In this document: piece by piece, positions 5,367-64,000 of the stretch
Layout: the number at the start of each line of letters is the position of its first letter
Numbering within the stretch: the stretch's first letter is position 1
DNA from: an uncultured Burkholderiales bacterium
GTDB lineage: Bacteria > Pseudomonadota > Gammaproteobacteria > Burkholderiales > Burkholderiaceae_C
Direction of reading: 5' to 3'
Assembly: GCA_903935585.1 (NCBI GenBank)
Contig: CAIZSE010000114.1
Coordinates: 1-64,000, forward strand
DNA length: 64,000 nt
Position numbers and translations under genes: made by a program
The notes under the pieces: model-generated
The model's input: the letters and a program-made list of their open reading frames with translations, nothing else
The model's database searches: none
Told to the model about the DNA's origin: nothing

Positions 5367-6296
5367 TCAGGCCTCCTCACGGATCTGGCGTCCGGTCAAT
5401 TTCAAAAACAGGTCTTCCAGATTGGAAGGTCGGTGCAGGGTGCGCAGCGTGGGCCAGGCCTCCAGCGCGTGCATCAGCGCACGGCTGTTCTGGGTGTAAA
5501 AGAAAACGGTCTCGCCACTGACCTCGACCCGACCTGCAAGGGCCTTCAATCCGGCCTCTTGCGCCAGCGCCACAGCGCCTTGGCCAAAGACTTCAACCAC
5601 TTCGGGCTCCAGGTGCTCGGCAATCAGGTCACGCGGTTTGCCCTCAGCGATTTTGCGGCCTTGGTCCAGCACCAACAGCCGGGAACACAGGCGTTCGGCC
5701 TCGTCCATGAAATGGGTGGTCAGCAAGATGGATTTGCCCTCTTGCAGCAGCACTTGCAGACGCTCCCACATCAGGTGCCGGGCTTGCGGGTCCAGTCCGG
5801 TGGTGGGCTCGTCGAGCATCAGCAGTTGGGGGTGGTTGATGAGCGCACGGGCCAGGCTCAGGCGCCGCTTCATGCCGCCTGACAACTCGCCGGGCTTGGA
5901 TTTGGCCTTGTGGCTGAGCGCCCCGAATTCCAGCAGCTTGGGGATGCGCGCCCGAATGGTGGCATCGGGCAGGCCAAAGTAGCGGCCAAAGACCAGCAGG
6001 TTTTCTTCCGCCGTGAAGTCGGGGTCCAGCGTGTCCATTTGCGCCACCACGCCCAGGCGGGCCTTGATGTTCAGGGCATCACGGGGCATTTGCAAGCCCT
6101 CGAAATAACGGATCTCCCCCCCATCGGGTTGTGTCAGGCCCAAGCACATGCGCAGCGAGGTGGTTTTGCCCGCGCCGTTGGGGCCAATCACACCCAGGCA
6201 TTCACCGGGATCAATATGGAAAGACAGGTCATTGACCACGGTCGCATCGCCATAGCGTTTGACCAGGTGCGCAACCGAAAGCAAAGGGGTGTTCAT
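5367..6296 (-). CDS. ABC transporter ATP-binding protein, NodI-like
   Basis: Walker A GPNGAGKTTS, signature LSGGMKRRLSLARAL, Walker [14 protein letters not shown]. Confidence 0.92.
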   Translation of the reverse strand: MNTPLLSVAHLVKRYGDATVVNDLSFHIDPGECLGVIGPNGAGKTTSLRMCLGLTQPDGGEIRYFEGLQMPRDALNIKARLGVVAQMDTLDPDFTAEENLLVFGRYFGLPDATIRARIPKLLEFGALSHKAKSKPGELSGGMKRRLSLARALINHPQLLMLDEPTTGLDPQARHLMWERLQVLLQEGKSILLTTHFMDEAERLCSRLLVLDQGRKIAEGKPRDLIAEHLEPEVVEVFGQGAVALAQEAGLKALAGRVEVSGETVFFYTQNSRALMHALEAWPTLRTLHRPSNLEDLFLKLTGRQIREEA

Positions 6297-6423
6297 GGGT
6301 TAATTGTGCCTGTGACAGGGCCTACTTTCGGTGGCAGGGTCTGCCTTCGGCTGGAAAATCCCCGGTGTACTGCTCGCCCGATAAAATCAGGCCTTCTCCT
6401 GACCCGCGCTTGCGGCACTGCCC

Positions 6424-7281
6424 ATGTCCAGCTCTTTTTCTGACCGCCTCGCGGTCTTGCCTCAGTACCTGATGCCCAAACAAGCCTTGACTGCCTTTGC
6501 GGGCTGGGTGGCTGGCAGCCAATGGGGCTCGGCCACCACAGGCATCATCGACTGGTTCGTGCAGCGCTACCACGTGAACATGGCCGAAGCCGCCAACCCT
6601 GACACGGCCAGCTACAAAAGCTTCAACGAATTTTTTACCCGTTCATTGCGGGCTGATGCCCGTCCTTTGGCAGAAACAGCGTTTGTCAGCCCGGTCGATG
6701 GCGCCATCAGCCAGTGCGGCCCGATTGACGGCGATCAGGTGTTCCAGGCCAAGGGCCACAGTTACAGCACGCGGGCCTTGGTGGGTGGCGACGCGGCACT
6801 GGCGGCGCAGTTTCAACAGGGTGAATTCGCCACGCTTTACCTGAGCCCGCGTGACTACCACCGCATTCACATGCCTTGCGCAGGCCGTTTGACGCGCATG
6901 ATCCATGTGCCCGGCGAGTTGTTTTCGGTCAACCCGACCACAGCACGTGGGGTGCCCGGCCTGTTTGCCCGCAATGAGCGGGTGGTCTGCGTGTTTGAAG
7001 GCGAGCACGGTCCCTTTGTGATGGTGCTGGTGGGCGCCACCATTGTGGGCAGCATGGCCACCGTCTGGCATGGCGTGGTCAACCCGCCACGTCCGGGCAC
7101 CCTGCGCGAATGGTCCTATGAAATGGGCAGCATTTCGCTGGCAAAAGGCGAAGAAATGGGCCGCTTCCTGCTGGGCTCCACGGTGGTGATGCTGTTCCCC
7201 AAAGGCGCCGTGCAGTTTGAAAATGACTGGACACCCACTCGCCCCATTGGCATGGGTGAGGCGATGGGAACGCGGCCCTAA
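6424..7281 (+). CDS. psd: Phosphatidylserine decarboxylase proenzyme
   Basis: [52 protein letters not shown] (LGST processing site). Confidence 0.96.
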
Positions 7282-47885: not shown

Positions 47886-50303
47886 TTAAATGGCTTCGTC
47901 TATGACCACATCAATGGGCACACCCCACAGTTCGGCTTGTGCTTGTAAATGCTGGATGGGTTGGCGCGCCCATTCCCCTCGGATATAGCCCAGCGCCACC
48001 ATGGCGCCGGCCTCGTAGCCCCAGCCTGCAGAGGTGATTTCACCGACAAATCGGCCATTCACATTGAGGGGTTCACCACCCCACAGATACTGATTGGGAT
48101 CCTTCACGAGAATCTTGACCAATTTCTTGTCCAAGAGCACCGGGCCTTTGGCTTTGCGTTCAAGCAAGGCTTTTTTTCCTTTGAAGTTGGCATGCTTGTC
48201 CAATTTGACCCCAGCCCACAGGCCCGCTTCAAAGGGTGTCTCATCCGGACCCATTTCAGCACCCCACGCCCTTCTCTGGCGCTCGATGCGCAATGCATCG
48301 AGTGCGTAGTAGCCTGCATCACGCAGGCCCAAATCGGCGCCTGCGGCTTGCAAGGCCAAGTAAACATGTCGGGTCATTTCAACGGGTACATACAACTCAT
48401 AACCAGGTCCACCGACATAGCTCATGCGGGCAGCCCGCACTTTGGCATGACCCACATCAATTTCTTTTGTCTGCGCAAACGCCAAATGTTGGGGCGATAA
48501 ATTGTCAGGGCACACGCGCGACATCAACTCCGCAGCACGCGGCCCCATCAGTGACAACACGCAATACTGGGCTGTCACGTCGTTGATGTACACACGCATG
48601 TCGGGCGTCAGGTGGCGCTGCAACCAATCCAAATCACGTGTGGTTTGGCCTGCCCCTGTCACCACCATGAAACGATCTGCGGCCACACGAATCACAGTGA
48701 GGTCACTTTCAAAACCGCCGCGATCGTTCAACAAGGCGGTGTAAACCATTTTGCCAATCACCACATCGATGTCGTTGGCACACATGTGCTGCAAGAAACT
48801 CAATGCATCGGGGCCCTGCACCCATAATTTGGAAAATGAAGATTGATCGTAAAGCGCCACCGCTTCACGTGTCGCTTTTTGCTCTGCTTGCACCCAAGGC
48901 AGCCAATCAGGGCTGTCCAAGGTATCCCGGGCCGCAGGCGAGCCTGCGGGTTTAAAGTAGTTCACACGTTCCCAGCCGTTTTTACTGCCAAATTCAGCCC
49001 CTTTGGCGGCCAAAACATCGTAGAGCGGCGAGCAACGCAAAGGTCTGACGGTTTGCAACTCTTGGCGAGGCCAACGCATGGCGTAATGCAAGCCCAAAGT
49101 TTCAGCAGTTCTTTCGGACAGTGCTTTTCGATTGCCCGTGAAAGCACCGAAACGGCGCACATCCACATCCCACAAATCAACACTGGGTTCACCGCCCACA
49201 ATCCATTCGGCCATCAAGCGCCCCGCGCCGCCCGAGTTGGCAATCCCGGCTGAATTGAAGCCGGCGCATACAAAATAATTTCGCACCTCAGGCGCTTCGC
49301 CCAAAATAAAATTACCATCCGGTGTGAAACTCTCCGGACCGTTCAGCAGCATTTTGACCTTGGCAGTTTCTAGGCAAGGTGTGCGTTGAATGGCGTTCAC
49401 CATCAAGATTTCAAATTGGTCCCAGTCTTCGTCTAACAATTGAAATTGGAAGCTTGAAGGAATGGGATGCACGTTCCAGGGTTTGGCCACCGGCTCAAAG
49501 CCCCCCATCACCAATCCACCCACTTCTTCTTTGTAATAGATGTAACCGTCGGGGTCACGCACCACGGGCCACATGGGGTGAATTCCTTCAATTTTGTCTG
49601 TCACGATGTAGTAATGCTCAGCTGAATACAAGGGGACATTGACGCCTGCCAACTGACCAAATTGACGCGCCCATTGGCCAGCACAGTTCACCAAAATGTC
49701 ACACTGAATATCACCCTGCTTGGTTTTGACACCCTTCACGCGACCTTCATCCAGGTCAACGCCAGTGACTTCAATGTCCTCGAAAATTTTTACGCCACGT
49801 TGCCGTGCGCCCTTGGCCAAGGACATGCACAAATCGGCCGGATTGGCTTTGCCATCGCCCGGAATCCAAATGCCCCCCACCAAATCATCGGTTCGCAGCA
49901 AGGGGGCACGCTCGCCTACTTCTTGGGGTGTGATTTCATGCACTTCCACCCCAAAACTCCGGGCCAAGGCAATTTGTTTGCGCAGCACTTTCATGCGCTC
50001 CGGGGTTCGGGCCACATTGACACTGCCGCATTGTTTCCATCCTGTGGCCAACCCAGTTTCCGCTTCTAGCGAGGAATACAACTCGATGCCGTACTTGCTC
50101 ATGCTCGTCATGTTGCGGTTGGGTCGCATTTGCCCCACCAGACCTGCGGCATGCCAAGTGGTACCGCTGGTCAATTTGCCTTGTTCCAACAAAACCACAT
50201 CGGTTTGCCCCAACTTGGCCAGGTGATACGCCACAGAACAACCCGCAATGCCGCCGCCCACAATCACAATTTTGGCTTGCGTTGGAAACTGATGTGTTGA
50301 CAT
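47886..50303 (-). CDS. FAD-dependent dehydrogenase, dimethylglycine/sarcosine dehydrogenase-like, with C-terminal GcvT-type domain
   Basis: IVIVGGGIAGCSVAYHLAKLGQTDVVLLEQGKLTSGTTWHAAGLVGQMR; MSYVGGPGYELYVP...DAGYYALDALRIERQRRAWGAEMGPDETPFEAGL GcvT-like. Confidence 0.9.
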   Translation of the reverse strand: MSTHQFPTQAKIVIVGGGIAGCSVAYHLAKLGQTDVVLLEQGKLTSGTTWHAAGLVGQMRPNRNMTSMSKYGIELYSSLEAETGLATGWKQCGSVNVARTPERMKVLRKQIALARSFGVEVHEITPQEVGERAPLLRTDDLVGGIWIPGDGKANPADLCMSLAKGARQRGVKIFEDIEVTGVDLDEGRVKGVKTKQGDIQCDILVNCAGQWARQFGQLAGVNVPLYSAEHYYIVTDKIEGIHPMWPVVRDPDGYIYYKEEVGGLVMGGFEPVAKPWNVHPIPSSFQFQLLDEDWDQFEILMVNAIQRTPCLETAKVKMLLNGPESFTPDGNFILGEAPEVRNYFVCAGFNSAGIANSGGAGRLMAEWIVGGEPSVDLWDVDVRRFGAFTGNRKALSERTAETLGLHYAMRWPRQELQTVRPLRCSPLYDVLAAKGAEFGSKNGWERVNYFKPAGSPAARDTLDSPDWLPWVQAEQKATREAVALYDQSSFSKLWVQGPDALSFLQHMCANDIDVVIGKMVYTALLNDRGGFESDLTVIRVAADRFMVVTGAGQTTRDLDWLQRHLTPDMRVYINDVTAQYCVLSLMGPRAAELMSRVCPDNLSPQHLAFAQTKEIDVGHAKVRAARMSYVGGPGYELYVPVEMTRHVYLALQAAGADLGLRDAGYYALDALRIERQRRAWGAEMGPDETPFEAGLWAGVKLDKHANFKGKKALLERKAKGPVLLDKKLVKILVKDPNQYLWGGEPLNVNGRFVGEITSAGWGYEAGAMVALGYIRGEWARQPIQHLQAQAELWGVPIDVVIDEAI

Positions 50304-51206: not shown

Positions 51207-51785
51207 TTAAGCCTTCAATGCACAGTGTCTTGCAATTTGCATGTAATGGGAAAGTCCGGGAGTTTGAAGGCTCGGCTGCTTGGCCAAGTCGTCCCACAAA
51301 CGCAAACGCACAGCATCAGAGGCGCCTGGTTCTGCGATGAATTTGTCAGCCTCTTCTTTTGAGAAAATGCCGCCCTGCAGTTTCAAACTGCGCTTGGAGT
51401 CTTCCGACAAGCCTTCGTAATATTCAGGCCGCGTTGCGCACAAGTACCGCTTGGCGTCCACATGCCGCTGAATGGCATCAATGACCGCATCCGAGAACAA
51501 TCCACGCAGAAATGGCACCACACGGTATTGGTGTACATCGTCCACACCGTGCAAGCTGGGTGTGTCGCCAAAATCGTGCAAGAGGTGCCCCAAGTCATGC
51601 AGAAAAGCGGCCGTGACCAACTCTTCGCTGGCACCCTCTTGCTCACCCAAATGACCGGACTGCAGGGCATGCTGCAGTTGGGTCACTGGCTCACCGGTGT
51701 ACTGCTCGTGGCCTTTTTCTTCAAACAGTTTTTCTATATCGTCTAAGCTTAAAGCCATGGTCGTCCTACAAAAGTGTGCCGTCAA
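51207..51785 (-). CDS. PhnZ/phosphonate-operon-associated HD-domain protein (possible mixed-valent diiron oxygenase)
   Basis: QLQHALQSGHLGEQEGASEELVTAAFLHDLGHLLHDFGD HD motif; neighbours are phosphonate genes. Confidence 0.85.
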   Translation of the reverse strand: MTAHFCRTTMALSLDDIEKLFEEKGHEQYTGEPVTQLQHALQSGHLGEQEGASEELVTAAFLHDLGHLLHDFGDTPSLHGVDDVHQYRVVPFLRGLFSDAVIDAIQRHVDAKRYLCATRPEYYEGLSEDSKRSLKLQGGIFSKEEADKFIAEPGASDAVRLRLWDDLAKQPSLQTPGLSHYMQIARHCALKA

Positions 51786-53449: not shown

Positions 53450-54907
53450 TCACGCCCAAGGCATGGAGTAAGTTTTGATATTGGTAAAGCTCTTCATGGC
53501 TTCTTGCACGCCTTCTTTGTAGCCCAAGCCGGAATCCTTGATGCCGCCAAACGGCGTGAGTTCCAATCGGTAGCCAGGCACTTCACGCACATTGACATTG
53601 CCCATTTGCAACTCGTTCACAAAGCGCACGATGTAGTCCATGCGATTGGTGCACACACCACTCGACAAGCCATACACCGTGCCATTCGCCATCTGAATGG
53701 CTTCATCAATATCCTTGAATTGAATGATGGGCGACACGGGACCAAAGGTTTCTTCTTTGACCAACAACATCTCGGGCCGAACTTGGTCCACCACGGTTGG
53801 GGCATACAAAGCACCGCGCCGTTGGTTGCCCACCAACAGACGCGCACCGTGGGCAATGGCATCGTTGACGCGTGACTCAAAAAACTTGGCCGCTGCTTCA
53901 TCAATCACTGTGCCCATCAAATTGTCTTTGTCAGATGGATCGCCATACGACCAGGCCTTGGTTTTTTGAACCACCAAATCGGTAAATTCTTTGGCCACCG
54001 ATTGATGCACCAACATCCGCTTGACCGCAGTACAGCGTTGGCCCGAATTTTTGTACGAACCCTGAACTGCCAAATTGGAAGCCTCATCCAAGTCAGCATC
54101 CTCCATGACGATGAGCGGGTCGTTACCCCCCAACTCCAACACAATGCGTCGGTAACCCGCCTTGTCAGCAATGTATTTCCCAATGGCCACACCACCTGTG
54201 AAGGTGATCAAATCCACCGCAGGGTGTGTCAGCATTTCATCGGCAATTTCACGAGGGTCACCGGTGATCACGCTGAGCATTTCGGGCGGCAGACCGGCCT
54301 CATAAAGCAAATCAGCAAAGTAAATGGCCGAATACGGCACTTTCTCTGACGGCTTGAGCACCATGCGGTTGTTAGTGGCCACACTGGGGATGACCTTGTG
54401 CGCCACTTGGTTCATCGGGTGATTGAACGGCGTAATGGCAGTGATCACACCCAGCAGGGGTGCGCGCTGTGTGTAGACACGACGCTTCTTGCCGTGGGGC
54501 GTTAAATCGCAACTGAAAATTTGACCATCGTCTATCAGCACCTCTTGCGCACCAAACAACAACACATCGCTGACGCGGCCAGCTTCGTAAACTGCGTCCT
54601 TCATGCACAAGCCAGATTCCGCAGAGATCAAATTGGCAATGTCTTGCAAATGATCTTGCACCAATGCCGCGGCTTTGTTCAAAATGGCCGCCCGGTCGAA
54701 GCGTGACAATTTGGGTTTGTAGGCTTGCGCCAATGCATAGGCTTCGCGAACTTCTTCCAAAGTGGCTTTGGGCACTGTGCCTAAACACTGTTCGGTGTAG
54801 GGATTGAACACCTCAATGCAACGATCGCGTCCTGCGCCCACTTTTTTTCCGCCAATGCGCATGGCATCGAGTTGGTGGTCTTTGATGAATTGTGCTACTT
54901 GACTCAT
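53450..54907 (-). CDS. phnY: Phosphonoacetaldehyde dehydrogenase (aldehyde dehydrogenase family)
   Basis: LELGGNDPLIVMEDADLDEASNLAVQGSYKNSGQRCTAVKR ALDH motifs; 19 nt from phnA. Confidence 0.9.
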   Translation of the reverse strand: MSQVAQFIKDHQLDAMRIGGKKVGAGRDRCIEVFNPYTEQCLGTVPKATLEEVREAYALAQAYKPKLSRFDRAAILNKAAALVQDHLQDIANLISAESGLCMKDAVYEAGRVSDVLLFGAQEVLIDDGQIFSCDLTPHGKKRRVYTQRAPLLGVITAITPFNHPMNQVAHKVIPSVATNNRMVLKPSEKVPYSAIYFADLLYEAGLPPEMLSVITGDPREIADEMLTHPAVDLITFTGGVAIGKYIADKAGYRRIVLELGGNDPLIVMEDADLDEASNLAVQGSYKNSGQRCTAVKRMLVHQSVAKEFTDLVVQKTKAWSYGDPSDKDNLMGTVIDEAAAKFFESRVNDAIAHGARLLVGNQRRGALYAPTVVDQVRPEMLLVKEETFGPVSPIIQFKDIDEAIQMANGTVYGLSSGVCTNRMDYIVRFVNELQMGNVNVREVPGYRLELTPFGGIKDSGLGYKEGVQEAMKSFTNIKTYSMPWA

Positions 54908-54925: not shown

Positions 54926-56889
<1,964 letters not shown>

Positions 56890-57046: not shown

Positions 57047-58078
57047 ATGCGCGCACTTTACAAATCTGCCCTTTTGGTGGGCGGTCTGTTGCTAGGCTCC
57101 ATGGCCTGGGCTCAAAAAACCCAACTGCTGGTCTACACCGCCTTGGAAGTCGACCAACTCAAAGCCTACCAAGAGGGCTTTAACAAGGTTCACCCCGACA
57201 TCGAACTCAAATGGGTGCGCGACTCCACAGGCGTGATCACTGCCAAGCTGCTGGCCGAAAAAGCCAACCCACAAGCTGACGCAGTCATGGGCGTTGCCGC
57301 CACCAGCTTGGCATTGATGAATAAAAACGGCATGTTGGAGCCCTATGCGCCCCTGAATTTGGACGCCATCATGCCCCAGTACCGCGACAAAACCAACCCA
57401 CCGGCATGGTGGGGCATGGATGTTTGGGGTGCCACCATTTGCTTTAACACCATTGAAGCCAAAAAACGCAACATTCCAAAGCCTGAAACATGGCAAGACC
57501 TCACCAAGCCCATTTACAAAGGTCAAGTTGTGATGCCCAACCCCGCTTCCAGCGGTACCGGTTACTTCGACGTGATTGCATGGCTTTCCTTGTTTGGTGA
57601 CGAAAACGGCAAAGGCGGCGGCTGGAAGTACATGGACGGATTGCACGAAAACATTGCGCAATACACACACTCAGGCTCCAAGCCATGCAACATGGCCTCT
57701 AGCGGCGAGTATGTGGTGGGCATCGCATTTGAATACCGCGCCAATGCCAACAAAGCCAAAGGCGCACCCATTGACTTGGTCTTCCCCAAAGAAGGCTTAG
57801 GCTGGGATTTGGAATCTTTCGCCATTCACAAAGGCACCAAAAAATTGGACGCGGCCAAAAAATTGTCTGACTGGGCATCAAGCAAAGACGCCATGAGGTT
57901 GTATGGCAAAAACTTTGCCATCACGGCTCACCCAGGTGTGGCAGAGCCCTTGCCCAACGTGCCTAAAGACTATGAGTCACGCTTGGTCAAATTGGACTTC
58001 AATTACGCTGCTGAGCAACGTGAGCGCATTCTGAAAGAATGGAACGCCCGCTACAACGGTAAATCCGAGAAGCGTTAA
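57047..58078 (+). CDS. 2-aminoethylphosphonate-type ABC transporter substrate-binding protein
   Basis: Signal peptide MRALYKSALLVGGLLLGSMAWA; TQLLVYTALEVDQLKAYQEGFNKVHPDIELKWVRDSTGVITAKLLAEK. Confidence 0.92.
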   Translation: MRALYKSALLVGGLLLGSMAWAQKTQLLVYTALEVDQLKAYQEGFNKVHPDIELKWVRDSTGVITAKLLAEKANPQADAVMGVAATSLALMNKNGMLEPYAPLNLDAIMPQYRDKTNPPAWWGMDVWGATICFNTIEAKKRNIPKPETWQDLTKPIYKGQVVMPNPASSGTGYFDVIAWLSLFGDENGKGGGWKYMDGLHENIAQYTHSGSKPCNMASSGEYVVGIAFEYRANANKAKGAPIDLVFPKEGLGWDLESFAIHKGTKKLDAAKKLSDWASSKDAMRLYGKNFAITAHPGVAEPLPNVPKDYESRLVKLDFNYAAEQRERILKEWNARYNGKSEKR

Positions 58079-58131: not shown

Positions 58132-59202
58132 ATGTCTGCAAGCCCCTACCTTTCCCTATCCCATCTGCACAAAGCCTTCGGCAGTTTTGTCGCATTACAA
58201 GACATCAATCTGGACATTGTTCCTGGCGAGCTGATTTGTTTTTTAGGCCCATCGGGTTGCGGTAAGACCACCCTTCTGCGAATCATCGCAGGGCTTGAAG
58301 TACAGACGCGCGGCGTCATTCAACAAGCAGGCAAAGACATCTCTTGCGCCCATCCCGCCGAACGCGATTACGGCATCGTGTTTCAAAGTTATGCCTTGTT
58401 TCCCAACCTCAGCATTGCAGACAACGTTGCTTATGGCTTGGTCAACCGAAAAGTGGCACGGGATGTGGTTCAGCAACGCGTTCAGGAATTGCTCAAACTG
58501 GTTGGACTGCCTGGTAGCGGGGCCAAATATCCAAGCCAACTCTCTGGCGGCCAACAGCAACGCATTGCCTTGGCCCGCGCCTTGGCCACCTCTCCTGGCT
58601 TGTTGCTTTTGGACGAGCCTTTGTCGGCATTGGACGCGCTGGAGCGCGTTCGATTGCGCGAAGAAATCAGATCACTGCAACAAAGTCTGGGCGTGACCAC
58701 CATCATGGTGACGCACGATCAAGAAGAAGCATTGAGCATGGCCGACCGCATTGTGGTGATGAACCACGGTTGCATCGAACAAGTCGGCACACCTACTGAA
58801 ATTTACAGGGAACCTGCCAGCGCATTTGTGGCCGAATTTGTAGGCCAAGTGAATGTGCTGCCGGGCACGGTGTCTGCTCAATCGTTACAACTGGGCGAGA
58901 TGCGCATCCCGCTTAGCAACATTCCCGCCAAAGGCCATGCCGACGGCGAGGTCAAAGTGTATTTGCGGCCCGAAGATGTGCTTGCAAGGCCCATTTTGGC
59001 CGGTGACCCCTGCGTCTTTCAAGCCACGATTCACGAGGTTGAATTCTTGGGTGCCTTTTGTCATGTGCACGTCATGGCACCTGCCATTTCAGCGCAAACC
59101 CTGACTGTTTATTTGTCGCTTAATTTCCTGGCGGAACAAAACCTGCAGGCAGGCTCCACACTCACATTGAAACTGATGCCTGAACGCATCAAACTGTTTT
59201 AA
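58132..59202 (+). CDS. 2-aminoethylphosphonate-type ABC transporter ATP-binding protein
   Basis: LGPSGCGKTTLLRIIAGLE, LSGGQQQRIALARALA, LLLLDEPLSALD. Confidence 0.94.
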   Translation: MSASPYLSLSHLHKAFGSFVALQDINLDIVPGELICFLGPSGCGKTTLLRIIAGLEVQTRGVIQQAGKDISCAHPAERDYGIVFQSYALFPNLSIADNVAYGLVNRKVARDVVQQRVQELLKLVGLPGSGAKYPSQLSGGQQQRIALARALATSPGLLLLDEPLSALDALERVRLREEIRSLQQSLGVTTIMVTHDQEEALSMADRIVVMNHGCIEQVGTPTEIYREPASAFVAEFVGQVNVLPGTVSAQSLQLGEMRIPLSNIPAKGHADGEVKVYLRPEDVLARPILAGDPCVFQATIHEVEFLGAFCHVHVMAPAISAQTLTVYLSLNFLAEQNLQAGSTLTLKLMPERIKLF

Positions 59203-59208
59203 ATCGGC

Positions 59209-60906
59209 ATGACTCCCGCATTACCTCAAGTGACGCAAAAAACCCATTGGAGTGAATGGGTTGGTTTTGCAGGTCTGGCATTTGTGCTCTTGTTGTTGTT
59301 GGCTTTTTTGGCAGCACCTTTGTTGGCCATCTTGCAACAAGCACTGCAAAACGATCAGGGTCAGTTCGTTGGACTGAAAAACTTTTTAGGCTATTTAGAA
59401 ACGCCGTCCTTGCTCCACAGTTTGTGGAACAGCATTTGGGTGTCTCTGCTGGTCACCTTCATTGTGGTGCCATTGGCCTTTGTGTTTGCCTACGCCCTGA
59501 CACGCAGCTGCATGCTTGGCAAATCACTTTTCAGAGCCATCAGTCTGATCCCATTGCTGGCCCCCTCCTTGCTCTCAGCCATTTCTTTGATTTACTGGTT
59601 TGGCAACCAAGGTGTCTTGAAGGACGTCATGCAAGCCCTCGGCATTGATCAAATTTATGGTCCTGCAGGGGTGGTCATGGCCGAATGCTTTGCAGTGTTC
59701 CCACATGTCTTGATGATTTTGGTCACGGCACTCACTTTGGCCGATGCCAGGCTTTACGAAGCAGCGGATGCCCTGGGCACCAGCACCCAGCGCAAGTTTT
59801 TCACCATCACCTTGCCTGGCGCCAAATACGGCCTCATTTCAGCTTCCCTGGTCAGCTTTACCCTGGTCATGACCGACTTTGGCATTCCCAAGGTGATCGG
59901 TGGCAATTTCAACATGATGGCCACTGATATTTTCAAATTGGTCATTGGTCAGCAAGACTTCTCAAAAGGATCGGTGGTGGCCTTGCTGCTGCTGTCACCT
60001 GCTGTGTTGAGTTTTGCGGTTGACCGGTATGTGAGTGCCCGTCAAACAGCCATGCTGAGTGCTCGCGCTGTGGCCTACCAACCCAAACCCCATGCGCGCC
60101 ACGATGCCACCATGCTGGTTTATTGCTGCGTCATCGCCTTCCTGATGCTGGCCATGTTGGGCATGGCTGTCTATGCTTCATTTGCCAGCTTCTGGCCCTA
60201 TGACCTTTCGCCTAGCCTGCGTCACTACAAACTGGGTTTGGTCGACGGTGAAGTAGGAGAAGGCTTCATCAACAGCTTGAAAATGGCAAGTGGTACCGCC
60301 TTCTTTGGCACATTGCTGGTATTTATCACGGCCTACTTGCTCGAAAAAACAAAAGGCATGGATGCGATCCGCGCACCGCTTCAGTTGCTGGCAGTGATAC
60401 CCATGGCGGTGCCCGGTTTGGTCTTGGGCTTGGGCTACATCTTTTTCTTCAACATGCCCAACAACCCTTTGCACGGCATGTACCAAAGCATGGCCTTGCT
60501 GACCTTGTGCACCATTGTTCACTTTTATACCACTGGCCATCTCACAGCCACCACCGCTTTGAAATCGCTCGATTCAGAATTTGAATCGGTCAGTGCATCC
60601 CTGAAAGTCCCGTTTTACAAAACCTTTTGGCGCGTGACTTTGCCCATTTGCACACCGGCCATGGTGGACATTGCGCGGTACTTTTTCATCAATGCCATGA
60701 CGACCATTTCTGCCGTGGTTTTTTTGTACTCACCCGAAACCAAAGTTGCGTCCATTGCCATTTTGAATCTGGATGAAGCAGGCGACATGGGCGCCGCAGC
60801 CGCCATGGCGGTGCTGATCGGCCTGATCTCCGCCGCGGCCACTGTGCTGTTTGCTTGGCTTGGCTGGTTTGTAGAGAAACGCACACAGGCCTGGCGAGGT
60901 CGCTAA
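59209..60906 (+). CDS. 2-aminoethylphosphonate-type ABC transporter permease (two permease units fused, 565 aa)
   Basis: Two binding-protein-dependent permease halves; EAADALGTSTQRKFFTITLPGAKYG and SASLKVPFYKTFWRVTLPICTP EAA-like loops. Confidence 0.92.
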   Translation: MTPALPQVTQKTHWSEWVGFAGLAFVLLLLLAFLAAPLLAILQQALQNDQGQFVGLKNFLGYLETPSLLHSLWNSIWVSLLVTFIVVPLAFVFAYALTRSCMLGKSLFRAISLIPLLAPSLLSAISLIYWFGNQGVLKDVMQALGIDQIYGPAGVVMAECFAVFPHVLMILVTALTLADARLYEAADALGTSTQRKFFTITLPGAKYGLISASLVSFTLVMTDFGIPKVIGGNFNMMATDIFKLVIGQQDFSKGSVVALLLLSPAVLSFAVDRYVSARQTAMLSARAVAYQPKPHARHDATMLVYCCVIAFLMLAMLGMAVYASFASFWPYDLSPSLRHYKLGLVDGEVGEGFINSLKMASGTAFFGTLLVFITAYLLEKTKGMDAIRAPLQLLAVIPMAVPGLVLGLGYIFFFNMPNNPLHGMYQSMALLTLCTIVHFYTTGHLTATTALKSLDSEFESVSASLKVPFYKTFWRVTLPICTPAMVDIARYFFINAMTTISAVVFLYSPETKVASIAILNLDEAGDMGAAAAMAVLIGLISAAATVLFAWLGWFVEKRTQAWRGR

Positions 60907-60967: not shown

Positions 60968-62083
60968 ATGCAACGCGAAGCCATTCTTTTGACCCCTGGT
61001 CCACTGACCACCACTTTGCGCACCAAACTCGCCATGCTGCGCGATTGGGGCTCTTGGGACAGCGACTTCATTGCGGTCACTGCACGTGTTCGCAAAAGCC
61101 TCTTGAACATTGTTCATGGCCACGACACGCACGTGGTCGTGCCCTTACAAGGCAGCGGCACGTTCAGTGTCGAAGCTGCCGTGGCCACCGTGGTGCCGCC
61201 CAGTGGGCACATCTTGGTCTTAGACAACGGCGCTTACTGCAAACGCGCCGCCAAGCTCTCCACCATGATGGGTCGCAAAACCACAGTGGTTCCAACCCCC
61301 GAGGACCAAGCAGTTTCCCCCATCGCGCTTGAGGCACTGCTCAACAAAGACCCCAGCATCACGCATGTGATTTTGATTCATTGTGAAACAGGTGCTGGCG
61401 TCATGAACCCCTTGCACGCGATATCTAAAGTTTGCGAGAAACACAACAAGGGATTGATCGTCGATGCCATGAGCTCGTTTGCGGCGCTTGAAATTGATGC
61501 GCGCACCACCCACTTTGACGCCCTCATTGCCGCCAGTGGCAAGTGCTTGGAAGGCGTGCCCGGCATGGGCTTTGTATTCATTCGCAAAGCCATCCTTGAC
61601 GGCTGTGCAGGCAACAACACCTCCTTGGCCATGGACCTGCACGACCAATACGTGTACATGGAAAAGACGGGCCAATGGCGCTTCACACCGCCCACCCACG
61701 TCATGTTGGCCTTGGCCGAAGCGATTCAGCAATTTGAGGACGAAGGAGGTCAGCCAGCTCGCTTAAAACGCTATCAAAGCAATTACAAGGCTTTGATCGA
61801 AGGCATGGCTGCGTTAGGTTTCAAACCCTATTTGGACCCATCGGTGCAAGCACCCATCATCGTGACTTTCCATGCGCCTGCCGATGCCAATTACGAGTTC
61901 AGAAAATTTTACGAAGCAGCCAAAAAATATGGCTTTCTTTTGTATCCCGGCAAACTCACTGAAATTGAAACCTTCCGCGTAGGTTGCATTGGCGCCATTG
62001 GTCCTGTTGAAATGCAGCAAGCGGTTCATGCCGTGTCTTTGGCACTGAAAGATTTGGGCATTGCCAGCGGCAAACCTGCTTGA
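60968..62083 (+). CDS. phnW: 2-aminoethylphosphonate-pyruvate transaminase
   Basis: [68 protein letters not shown]. Confidence 0.96.
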
Positions 62084-62127: not shown

Positions 62128-63501
62128 ATGGCCACCTCCAAAGTACACCCCGCACTCAAAGCGGTTGAAAAAAGTGGTGCTCAAAAAGTCAAAGTGGCCG
62201 TGAGTGACATCGATGGCGTTTTGCGTGGCAAGTATTTGCACATCGACAAATTCAAAAGCGCAGCAGAGCCTTACCCTGCGGGTGGCTTCGCTTTTTGCGA
62301 TGTGGTGTTTGGCTGGGACTCTTCTGACCAGTGCTACGACAACACATCCGTCACAGGTTGGCAGCATGGCTTTCCCGATGCACTCGCGCGTTTGGACTTG
62401 AACACAGCGCGCAATGTGCCCTGGGACAACAATGTGTCATTCTTCATTGGTGAATTTGTCAACAGCGATGGCACGCCCCATCCGCTGTGCCCACGCCAAA
62501 CTTTGAAGAAGGTCTTGAAGCGCGCCGAAAAATTAGGCGTCAATCCCATGTGCGGCATGGAGTTTGAATGGTTTAACTTCTTAGAAAACTCGCATTCATG
62601 GCAGAAAAAGAAGGGTGTGGAACCCACACCCTTGACGCCCGGCATGTTTGGCTATTCCTTGCTGCGCATGAACCAAAACCGCGAGTTCTTCAACGCCATT
62701 CAGGATGAAATGCTGCAATTTGGTGTACCCATCGAAGGCCTGCATACCGAAACAGGTCCTGGCGTGTACGAAGCGGCCATTGCCTTCTGCGATGCCCTGA
62801 CACAAGCCGATCGCGCCATCTTGTTCAAAACCGGCACCAAGGAAATTGGCGCGCGCTTTGGCATCATGCCCAGCTTCATGGCCAAATGGAATGCCGCTCT
62901 GCCTGGCTGCAGCGGCCACATTCACCAAAGTCTGAGCGATGGCAAAAAGAATTTGTTTGCCGATGCCAAAGGCCGTCATGGCATGAGCAAGGTGTTTGAA
63001 AGTTACTTGGCTGGCCAAGTGGCTCACTTGATGGAATTTGCGCCGATGTTCTGGCCCACCATCAACAGCTACAAGCGCTTGGTGGATGGCTTCTGGGCAC
63101 CGGTCAAACCCACCTGGGGTTTGGACAACCGCACGGCCAGCTTCCGGGTCATTTCAGGCTCGCCCAAATCAACCCGCCTGGAAACGCGCTGCCCCGGTGC
63201 TGACGTCAACCCCTACTTGGCCATGGCTGCGGTCATTGCCGCAGGCTTGGACGGTGTTGAAAAAGGCATGAAGCTAACAGCTCCTCCCATATACGGCACC
63301 AACGGCGGTGCTGAAAACATCCCCCGTGCGCCCCGCACCTTGATTGAAACCACACGCAATTTCCAACAGTCCAAAGTTGCACGCGATTGGTTGGGCGATA
63401 CATTTGTGGATCACTTTGCTGCCACCCGTGAGTGGGAATGGCGCCAATGGCTCGATGGCGTGACCGATTGGGAACTCAAACGCTATTTCGAAATCATTTA
63501 A
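62128..63501 (+). CDS. Glutamine synthetase family protein (GS-like amide ligase)
   Basis: VKVAVSDIDGVLRGKYLHIDKF, CGMEFEWFNF, HTETGPGVYEAAIAFCDAL, SGHIHQSL, RTASFRVISG..STRLETRCPGADVNPYLAMAAVIAAGLDG. Confidence 0.92.
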   Translation: MATSKVHPALKAVEKSGAQKVKVAVSDIDGVLRGKYLHIDKFKSAAEPYPAGGFAFCDVVFGWDSSDQCYDNTSVTGWQHGFPDALARLDLNTARNVPWDNNVSFFIGEFVNSDGTPHPLCPRQTLKKVLKRAEKLGVNPMCGMEFEWFNFLENSHSWQKKKGVEPTPLTPGMFGYSLLRMNQNREFFNAIQDEMLQFGVPIEGLHTETGPGVYEAAIAFCDALTQADRAILFKTGTKEIGARFGIMPSFMAKWNAALPGCSGHIHQSLSDGKKNLFADAKGRHGMSKVFESYLAGQVAHLMEFAPMFWPTINSYKRLVDGFWAPVKPTWGLDNRTASFRVISGSPKSTRLETRCPGADVNPYLAMAAVIAAGLDGVEKGMKLTAPPIYGTNGGAENIPRAPRTLIETTRNFQQSKVARDWLGDTFVDHFAATREWEWRQWLDGVTDWELKRYFEII

Positions 63502-63532: not shown

Positions 63533-64000
63533 ATGAGCATTCACAAGTTTTCATTTCCTACCCCCATTCACTTTGGCGTGGGTGCCCGCAAATTGGTGGG
63601 TCAACATTTGAAGGATTTGGGATTCAAACGACCCCTCATCGTCACCGACAAAGCCATGGCCGACTTGCCCCTCATGGCCGAGTTCATTGGCCACTTAGGC
63701 GGTTTGGATGTGGCCGTTTATGCTGGCGTACATGGCAACCCCACCGCCTCACAAGTGACTGCAGGCGGGGCTGCCTTCAAAGCACACCAGGCCGATTGCG
63801 TGATTGGTTTGGGTGGTGGCGCATCATTGGATGTGGCCAAAGTGGTGGGCTTGTCCGCCACCCATGATGGCCCTATTTTGGAATACGCATGGGACCATCC
63901 CAAGGCTCGCAGCATCACCGGTCCACTGCCCTACTTTGTCGCCCTCCCCACCACGTCGGGTACGGGTTCTGAAGTGGGCCGCTCTAGCGTGGTGAGCGAA
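63533..64000 (+). CDS. Iron-containing alcohol dehydrogenase, 3'-truncated by window edge
   Basis: MSIHKFSFPTPIHFGVGARKLVGQHL...CVIGLGGGASLDVAKVVG...VALPTTSGTGSEVGRSSVVSE; open to the last base. Confidence 0.93.
   Translation, partial: MSIHKFSFPTPIHFGVGARKLVGQHLKDLGFKRPLIVTDKAMADLPLMAEFIGHLGGLDVAVYAGVHGNPTASQVTAGGAAFKAHQADCVIGLGGGASLDVAKVVGLSATHDGPILEYAWDHPKARSITGPLPYFVALPTTSGTGSEVGRSSVVSE

Follow-up and report, generated by a model that had tools for sequence, protein, structure and literature searches.

A glutamine-synthetase-like gene coupled to phnW probably encodes the gamma-glutamylethanolamide synthetase of an ethanolamine module in Burkholderiaceae

What does a ligase of the glutamine synthetase (GS) fold do in a gene cluster for the breakdown of 2-aminoethylphosphonate (AEP)? 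The question arises in the window analyzed here, the first 64,000 nucleotides of a contig (C114) of an uncultured Burkholderiales bacterium. A complete GS-fold open reading frame (62128–63501, plus strand, 457 aa) starts with an ATG close behind a good Shine-Dalgarno sequence, AAAGGA, matches Pfam Gln-synt_C with 307 bits and carries VKVAVSDIDGVLRGKYL at residues 21–37. A gap of 44 nt separates it from the end of phnW, and another of 31 nt from the ATG of the gene that follows, which encodes an Fe-containing alcohol dehydrogenase (Fe-ADH; 63533–64000, plus strand). This gene is cut by the window end, and the contig itself ends within it at 64611. Scans for a promoter or strong terminator between phnW and the GS gene, in themselves weak evidence, gave no clear one. 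An earlier note on this DNA had described the same arrangement, which coordinates and profile score bear out, and had proposed that the ligase gamma-glutamylates AEP, N-methyl-AEP or a released amine.

The plus-strand arm upstream of the GS gene comprises phnW, encoding the AEP-pyruvate transaminase (60968–62083; NF010006, 554 bits, cut-off 296), and the genes of an AEP ABC transporter, namely the permease phnU2 (59209–60906; TIGR03262, 796 bits over 593), the ATPase phnT2 (58132–59202; assigned by position and conservation) and the substrate-binding protein phnS2 (57047–58078; TIGR03261, 483 bits over 393). Divergent from these, on the minus strand, lie the GntR-type regulator phnR (56155–56889; TIGR03338, 272 bits over 271.5), the phosphonoacetate hydrolase phnA (54926–56143) and the phosphonoacetaldehyde dehydrogenase phnY (53450–54907), both of the latter also above their NCBIfam cut-offs. 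Since PhnR, PhnS2, PhnU2, PhnW, PhnA and PhnY all pass curated cut-offs, the cluster for AEP uptake and the PhnW-PhnY-PhnA route is complete, and the AEP operon setting named in the earlier note is confirmed. The phnA-phnY arm also holds a phosphonate-degradation HD-domain oxygenase of the PhnZ/TmpB-like type (51207–51785, minus strand; TIGR03276, 237 bits over 214.6), with which the cluster may also use 1-hydroxy-aminoalkylphosphonate. Adjoining the phn genes is an 805-aa FAD oxidoreductase with GcvT domains of the dimethylglycine/sarcosine dehydrogenase type (47886–50303, minus strand), relatives of which are also found near phn genes or GS modules at loci L143, L092 and L082. The phnW-GS-FeADH order recurs in congeners and across the family and is thus no accident of one genome; a GS with 97% identity in the same gene order is found in a MAG named Limnohabitans, on which basis we assign the host to this genus.

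The protein is far under the cut-off of every NCBIfam GS equivalog, with 223 bits against 429 for the GlnA model TIGR00653, 223 bits against 469.6 for the type III GS/GMAS model TIGR03105 and 170 bits against 650 for the gamma-glutamylputrescine synthetase model NF045547. In the alignment with E. coli GlnA, two ammonium-site residues are replaced (Glu327 by Trp323, Tyr179 by Gly175), and Asp50 is ambiguous, since the local motif YDNTSVTGW places it at D71 and the global alignment at Cys57. Of the residues for metal, glutamate and nucleotide that we checked, only Asn264, which is Pro here, is not retained. The adenylylation loop NLYDLP with Tyr397 is absent, whereas a related sequence, DLYHLP, occurs in the GlnA of the same genome. 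Intact catalytic residues together with an altered ammonium site are what a ligase of the gamma-glutamylethanolamide route should display, and PauA7, GlnA4 and other gamma-glutamyl amine ligases are distinguished by the loss of these ammonium-site residues (PMC6529630). As judged from these scores and residues, the window GS is a new representative of the gamma-glutamyl amine ligases and not a housekeeping GS, in agreement with the earlier note. GMAS and PuuA identities were rejected on scores, residues and chemistry.

An AlphaFold2 model built from 28 relatives shows the GS fold (mean pLDDT 87, pTM 0.91), and Foldseek confirmed the fold without discriminating the amine, its top matches including Brucella GS, 1-naphthylamine GS and archaeal GlnA. 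By profile score, the best PDB matches are Brucella GS 11ZS (366 bits) and then 5DM3, which is Csal_0679 (342 bits), with GlnA chains at 247 bits or less; Csal_0678, the neighboring locus number, has been treated as an ethanolamine-binding protein (PMC10132767). The window GS is only 31–33% identical to GS of the ethanolamine-operon type (5DM3, S. meliloti), which form a separate branch and not one clade with it in our tree, computed from a set exclusive of GlnA4. Proteins annotated as the isopropylamide ligase IpuC are closer, at 38–40% identity, and we found no assayed enzyme of the exact subfamily in the literature. The host genome (3.4 Mb, 190 contigs) has two GS-fold genes besides the window GS, one for GlnA and another (L003, contig C31) in which Glu327 is replaced by Met. 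More distant relatives with 44–46% identity (L125, L126) have genes for an aminotransferase, a P1-peptidase and an ABC transporter as neighbors, at one of the two loci with a dimethylformamidase-like gene, and probably act on another amine.

In congeners, phnW-GS-FeADH is followed by genes for a C26 peptidase of the PuuD type, an aldehyde dehydrogenase (ALDH) and an HAD-IB protein. In the genome under study, the C26, ALDH and HAD genes are found on contig C92, beginning with its very first bases, and synteny suggests that C114 and C92 adjoin. The GS gene thus has its alcohol dehydrogenase partner in the window and those for aldehyde dehydrogenase and gamma-glutamyl hydrolase on C92, and in congeners all of these are contiguous with it. 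A search of genome contigs returned 80 related loci, and their comparison establishes the make-up of the module: most keep GS-FeADH-C26-ALDH, and these range from Burkholderiales as far as loci with the labels Oligoflexia, Bacteroidetes and Planctomycetota. Comparison likewise shows that the module exists apart from phn genes, in many cases and often next to an ethanolamine permease. A like gene set on S. meliloti pSymB comes with an N-formylglutamate amidohydrolase and an amino acid permease. The four predicted activities equal the enzyme set of a published ethanolamine route, in which ethanolamine is converted via gamma-Glu-ethanolamide and gamma-Glu-Gly to Glu and Gly; the corresponding Phaeobacter operon, which encodes a GS, the two dehydrogenases for alcohol and aldehyde and a gamma-glutamyl hydrolase, is induced on phosphorylethanolamine (PMC10132767).

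Further evidence on the substrate comes from the permeases. A permease upstream of a GS with 78% identity to the window GS (L066) reaches 626 bits with TIGR00908, the model for ethanolamine permeases (cut-off 382 bits), and those at L099 and L102 also exceed the cut-off, so that bona fide matches accompany GS of 56–78% identity; other permeases, beside GS of 65–83% identity, reach 363–376 bits, slightly under it. In two genomes (G218 and G185) a permease, with 373 and 360 bits also below 382, lies between phnW and GS, together with a regulator that has EutR as its top-scoring family (136–144 bits, cut-off 319). TIGR00908 permeases gave no match in the genome under study, nor elsewhere in any of nine genomes with a phn-linked, permease-free module, while the three control genomes have one; EutB was not found in the genome under study either. 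Comparing phn-linked (n=27) with permease-linked GS (n=9), we observed no position with disjoint residues and a best cross-context identity of 89%. A search for residues separating the two contexts gave only two variable N-terminal positions, and between them we saw no difference at the catalytic and pocket positions checked, except that D71 is Glu somewhere among the permease-linked GS. On chemical grounds, too, ethanolamine fits: the hydroxyl that an Fe-ADH requires is present in gamma-Glu-ethanolamide and missing from gamma-Glu-AEP. Taken together, the permease links, the Fe-ADH chemistry, the same active site in both contexts and the lack of EutB make a phn-specific substrate unlikely. At two loci (L032, L035) a GS module without phnW has as neighbors a PhnR-like GntR regulator (54–55% identity) and a permease of the TIGR00907 type; the PhnR-like family may respond to an ethylamine and not to a phosphonate.

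We thus consider it probable that the window GS is the gamma-glutamylethanolamide synthetase of a four-gene ethanolamine module joined downstream of phnSTUW, the substrate and each reaction being proposed from gene content and chemistry. The GS would use ATP to form gamma-glutamyl phosphate and join the glutamyl group to the amine of ethanolamine; the Fe-ADH, as putative gamma-glutamylethanolamide dehydrogenase, would oxidize the free hydroxyl of the product to the aldehyde; the ALDH would convert this to gamma-glutamylglycine, and the C26 hydrolase would release glutamate and glycine. The expectation of the earlier note that the Fe-ADH serves an alcohol or aldehyde step is well accommodated by this hydroxyl. 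With the module in place downstream of phnSTUW, a single gene run would handle ethanolamine as well as AEP, the latter by PhnW-PhnY-PhnA, and so serve two ethylamine head groups.

An unlikely alternative, though one with some footing, is that the GS prefers another small amine or amino-alcohol (isopropylamine- or alaninol-like, 1-amino-2-propanol, or methylamine from N-methyl-AEP) and uses ethanolamine secondarily. The identity to IpuC-annotated proteins points this way, as do some related modules that stand beside permeases of the TIGR00907 type and not EAT, and oxidation of N-methyl-AEP does release methylamine (PMC10590968). However, gamma-Glu-methylamide would offer the Fe-ADH no alcohol, the GMAS-type model TIGR03105 is missed by a wide distance, no PbfB-D oxidase was identified in the window's cluster, and permeases above the ethanolamine cut-off are neighbors of GS with 56–78% identity. 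At another locus (L083), a DadA-like FAD oxidoreductase (5504–6736) lies between phnW and GS, in a position as known for the PbfB-D N-methyl-AEP oxidoreductases.

The coupling to phnW bears on the substrate as well. We sampled 201 genomes evenly from the family, taking GS at E ≤ 1e-140 and PhnW at E ≤ 1e-90, and found GS in 35, PhnW in 41 and both in 28; PhnW thus occurs in 28/35 genomes with GS versus 13/166 without (Fisher p = 5e-18, uncorrected for phylogeny). In every genome with the two genes on a single contig (27/27), phnW precedes GS in the same orientation, with a gap of 19–2725 nt that is usually below 300. Well-supported branches of the GS tree carry at least five to seven changes in phn linkage, which has hence been gained or lost repeatedly, so that the coupling is a recurrent one by comparison across the family. 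Such tight linkage is what one would expect if the GS gamma-glutamylated AEP or N-methyl-AEP to give a protected intermediate of phosphonate breakdown, as the earlier note suggested. We nevertheless regard this as very improbable: a complete PhnW-PhnY-PhnA route is already in the cluster, the module exists without phn genes beside ethanolamine permeases and with the same active-site residues, and Fe-ADH, ALDH and hydrolase would have no evident use for a gamma-Glu-AEP devoid of a hydroxyl. Of the earlier reading, the amine ligase therefore stands and the ethanolamide option that it listed fits, while AEP or N-methyl-AEP as the substrate finds no support. That the GS is an ordinary ammonia-assimilating enzyme capturing ammonium from AEP is equally implausible, since its retained metal, glutamate and nucleotide residues are set against the loss of E327 and Y179, the GlnA score, a separate GlnA in the genome and the fact that PhnW passes the amino group to pyruvate and releases no ammonium.

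Gamma-glutamylethanolamide synthesis remains the preferred role of the GS, yet ethanolamine chemistry alone does not account for the strong phnW coupling. The HAD-IB protein of the phn-linked modules is related to histidinol-phosphatase and has conserved catalytic motifs. Among modules with complete flanks, it is present in 30/39 phn-linked ones versus 0/36 others (Fisher p = 3e-13, uncorrected), and in the operon-bearing genomes tested it is a second copy. The operon copies score 224–244 bits against the histidinol-phosphatase model NF052360, under its cut-off of 280, whereas the single copies scanned in genomes without a phn-linked operon score 283–318 bits, above it. O-phosphoethanolamine is very similar to AEP and, like histidinol phosphate, belongs to the beta-amino alkyl phosphates. 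The simplest reading, which we hold tentatively, is that PhnSTU imports O-phosphoethanolamine and the HAD hydrolyzes it to intracellular ethanolamine.

Several observations hold this reading below an even chance. The HAD tracks phnW linkage in 4.1–4.8 of 5 independent tree pairs (p 0.06–0.13), too few pairs for significance. One genome (G205) has phnW and the HAD gene but lacks phnSTU, which weakens the idea that the HAD tracks phnSTU rather than phnW, and another (G139, locus L171) has phnSTUW with the HAD gene close downstream and no GS module. These exceptions, together with membership in the HolPase-like HAD-IB group, would suit a merely displaced histidinol-phosphatase or general hydrolase outside the route, and for this we see the balance as even; its status as an extra copy, the scores on either side of the HolPase cut-off, the restriction to phn-linked modules and the tree pairs speak against it. 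The full scheme, in which one gene run takes up AEP (C-P) and O-phosphoethanolamine (C-O-P) by PhnSTU, splits the former by PhnW-PhnY-PhnA and the latter by a histidinol-phosphatase-derived HAD, and converts ethanolamine to glycine via gamma-glutamylation, is possible but on the doubtful side. If true, a single operon would give access to the P, N and C of two ethylamine head groups that are both common.

What is new here is the joined AEP-plus-ethanolamine operon with a phosphatase, of which we found no description in the open-access literature. Searches of that literature, which also covered phosphoethanolamine and HAD proteins in connection with phosphonates and Limnohabitans in connection with phosphonate or ethanolamine, likewise returned no report on the phnW and GS pairing, and the word glutamine is absent from the main text of two papers on AEP clusters (PMC10590968 and PMC12366243). 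GS-like genes in AEP clusters can easily be mistaken for nitrogen assimilation or AEP-modifying enzymes. In one family, many bacteria from fresh water and soil have phosphonate genes to which an ethanolamine module and a phosphatase of putative role appear joined; in Burkholderiaceae (in the GTDB sense, judging by named relatives), including freshwater Limnohabitans, a single operon would thereby link the catabolism of phosphonates with that of phospholipid head groups. The coupled phosphatase is a concrete candidate for intracellular phosphoethanolamine use.

Among known systems, the Phaeobacter sp. MED193 operon, ETAGA-GAADDH-GETADH-GGAH with the EtoX TRAP transporter and with homologues in Chromohalobacter salexigens and Agrobacterium (PMC10132767), shares the same four predicted activities in one cluster and the link to a phosphorylated head group, and 5DM3 is among our two best PDB matches. 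Its GS type is, however, only ~31–33% identical, and in our locus no TRAP transporter was seen and the module is joined to phnSTUW with an HAD. The Streptomyces coelicolor GlnA4 cluster (PMC6529630) similarly combines a GS-like ligase, with E327 replaced, and dehydrogenase, aldehyde dehydrogenase and glutamine-amidotransferase genes, but its dehydrogenase is short-chain and not of the Fe type, and phosphonate genes are absent. IpuC, annotated as gamma-glutamylisopropylamide synthetase on Paenarthrobacter aurescens TC1 plasmids, has the same E327-to-Trp exchange at 38–40% identity and an amidotransferase-type hydrolase gene nearby; unlike the window GS, it is accompanied by cytochrome P450 and ferredoxin genes with no Fe-ADH in the region shown, and falls outside the 86-row window-GS clade. 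As the earlier note anticipated, the logic resembles the E. coli Puu pathway, where an amine is gamma-glutamylated and oxidized and glutamate is released by a C26 (PuuD-like) hydrolase, although PuuA is 25% identical to the window GS and the amine oxidase PuuB stands where the module has an Fe-ADH. Finally, as in AEP hydrolytic clusters with PbfA-PbfF (PMC10590968, PMC12366243), extra enzymes joined to a PhnW cluster would widen its substrate range; those enzymes feed phosphonoacetaldehyde, whereas the module added here is proposed to serve a non-phosphonate amine.
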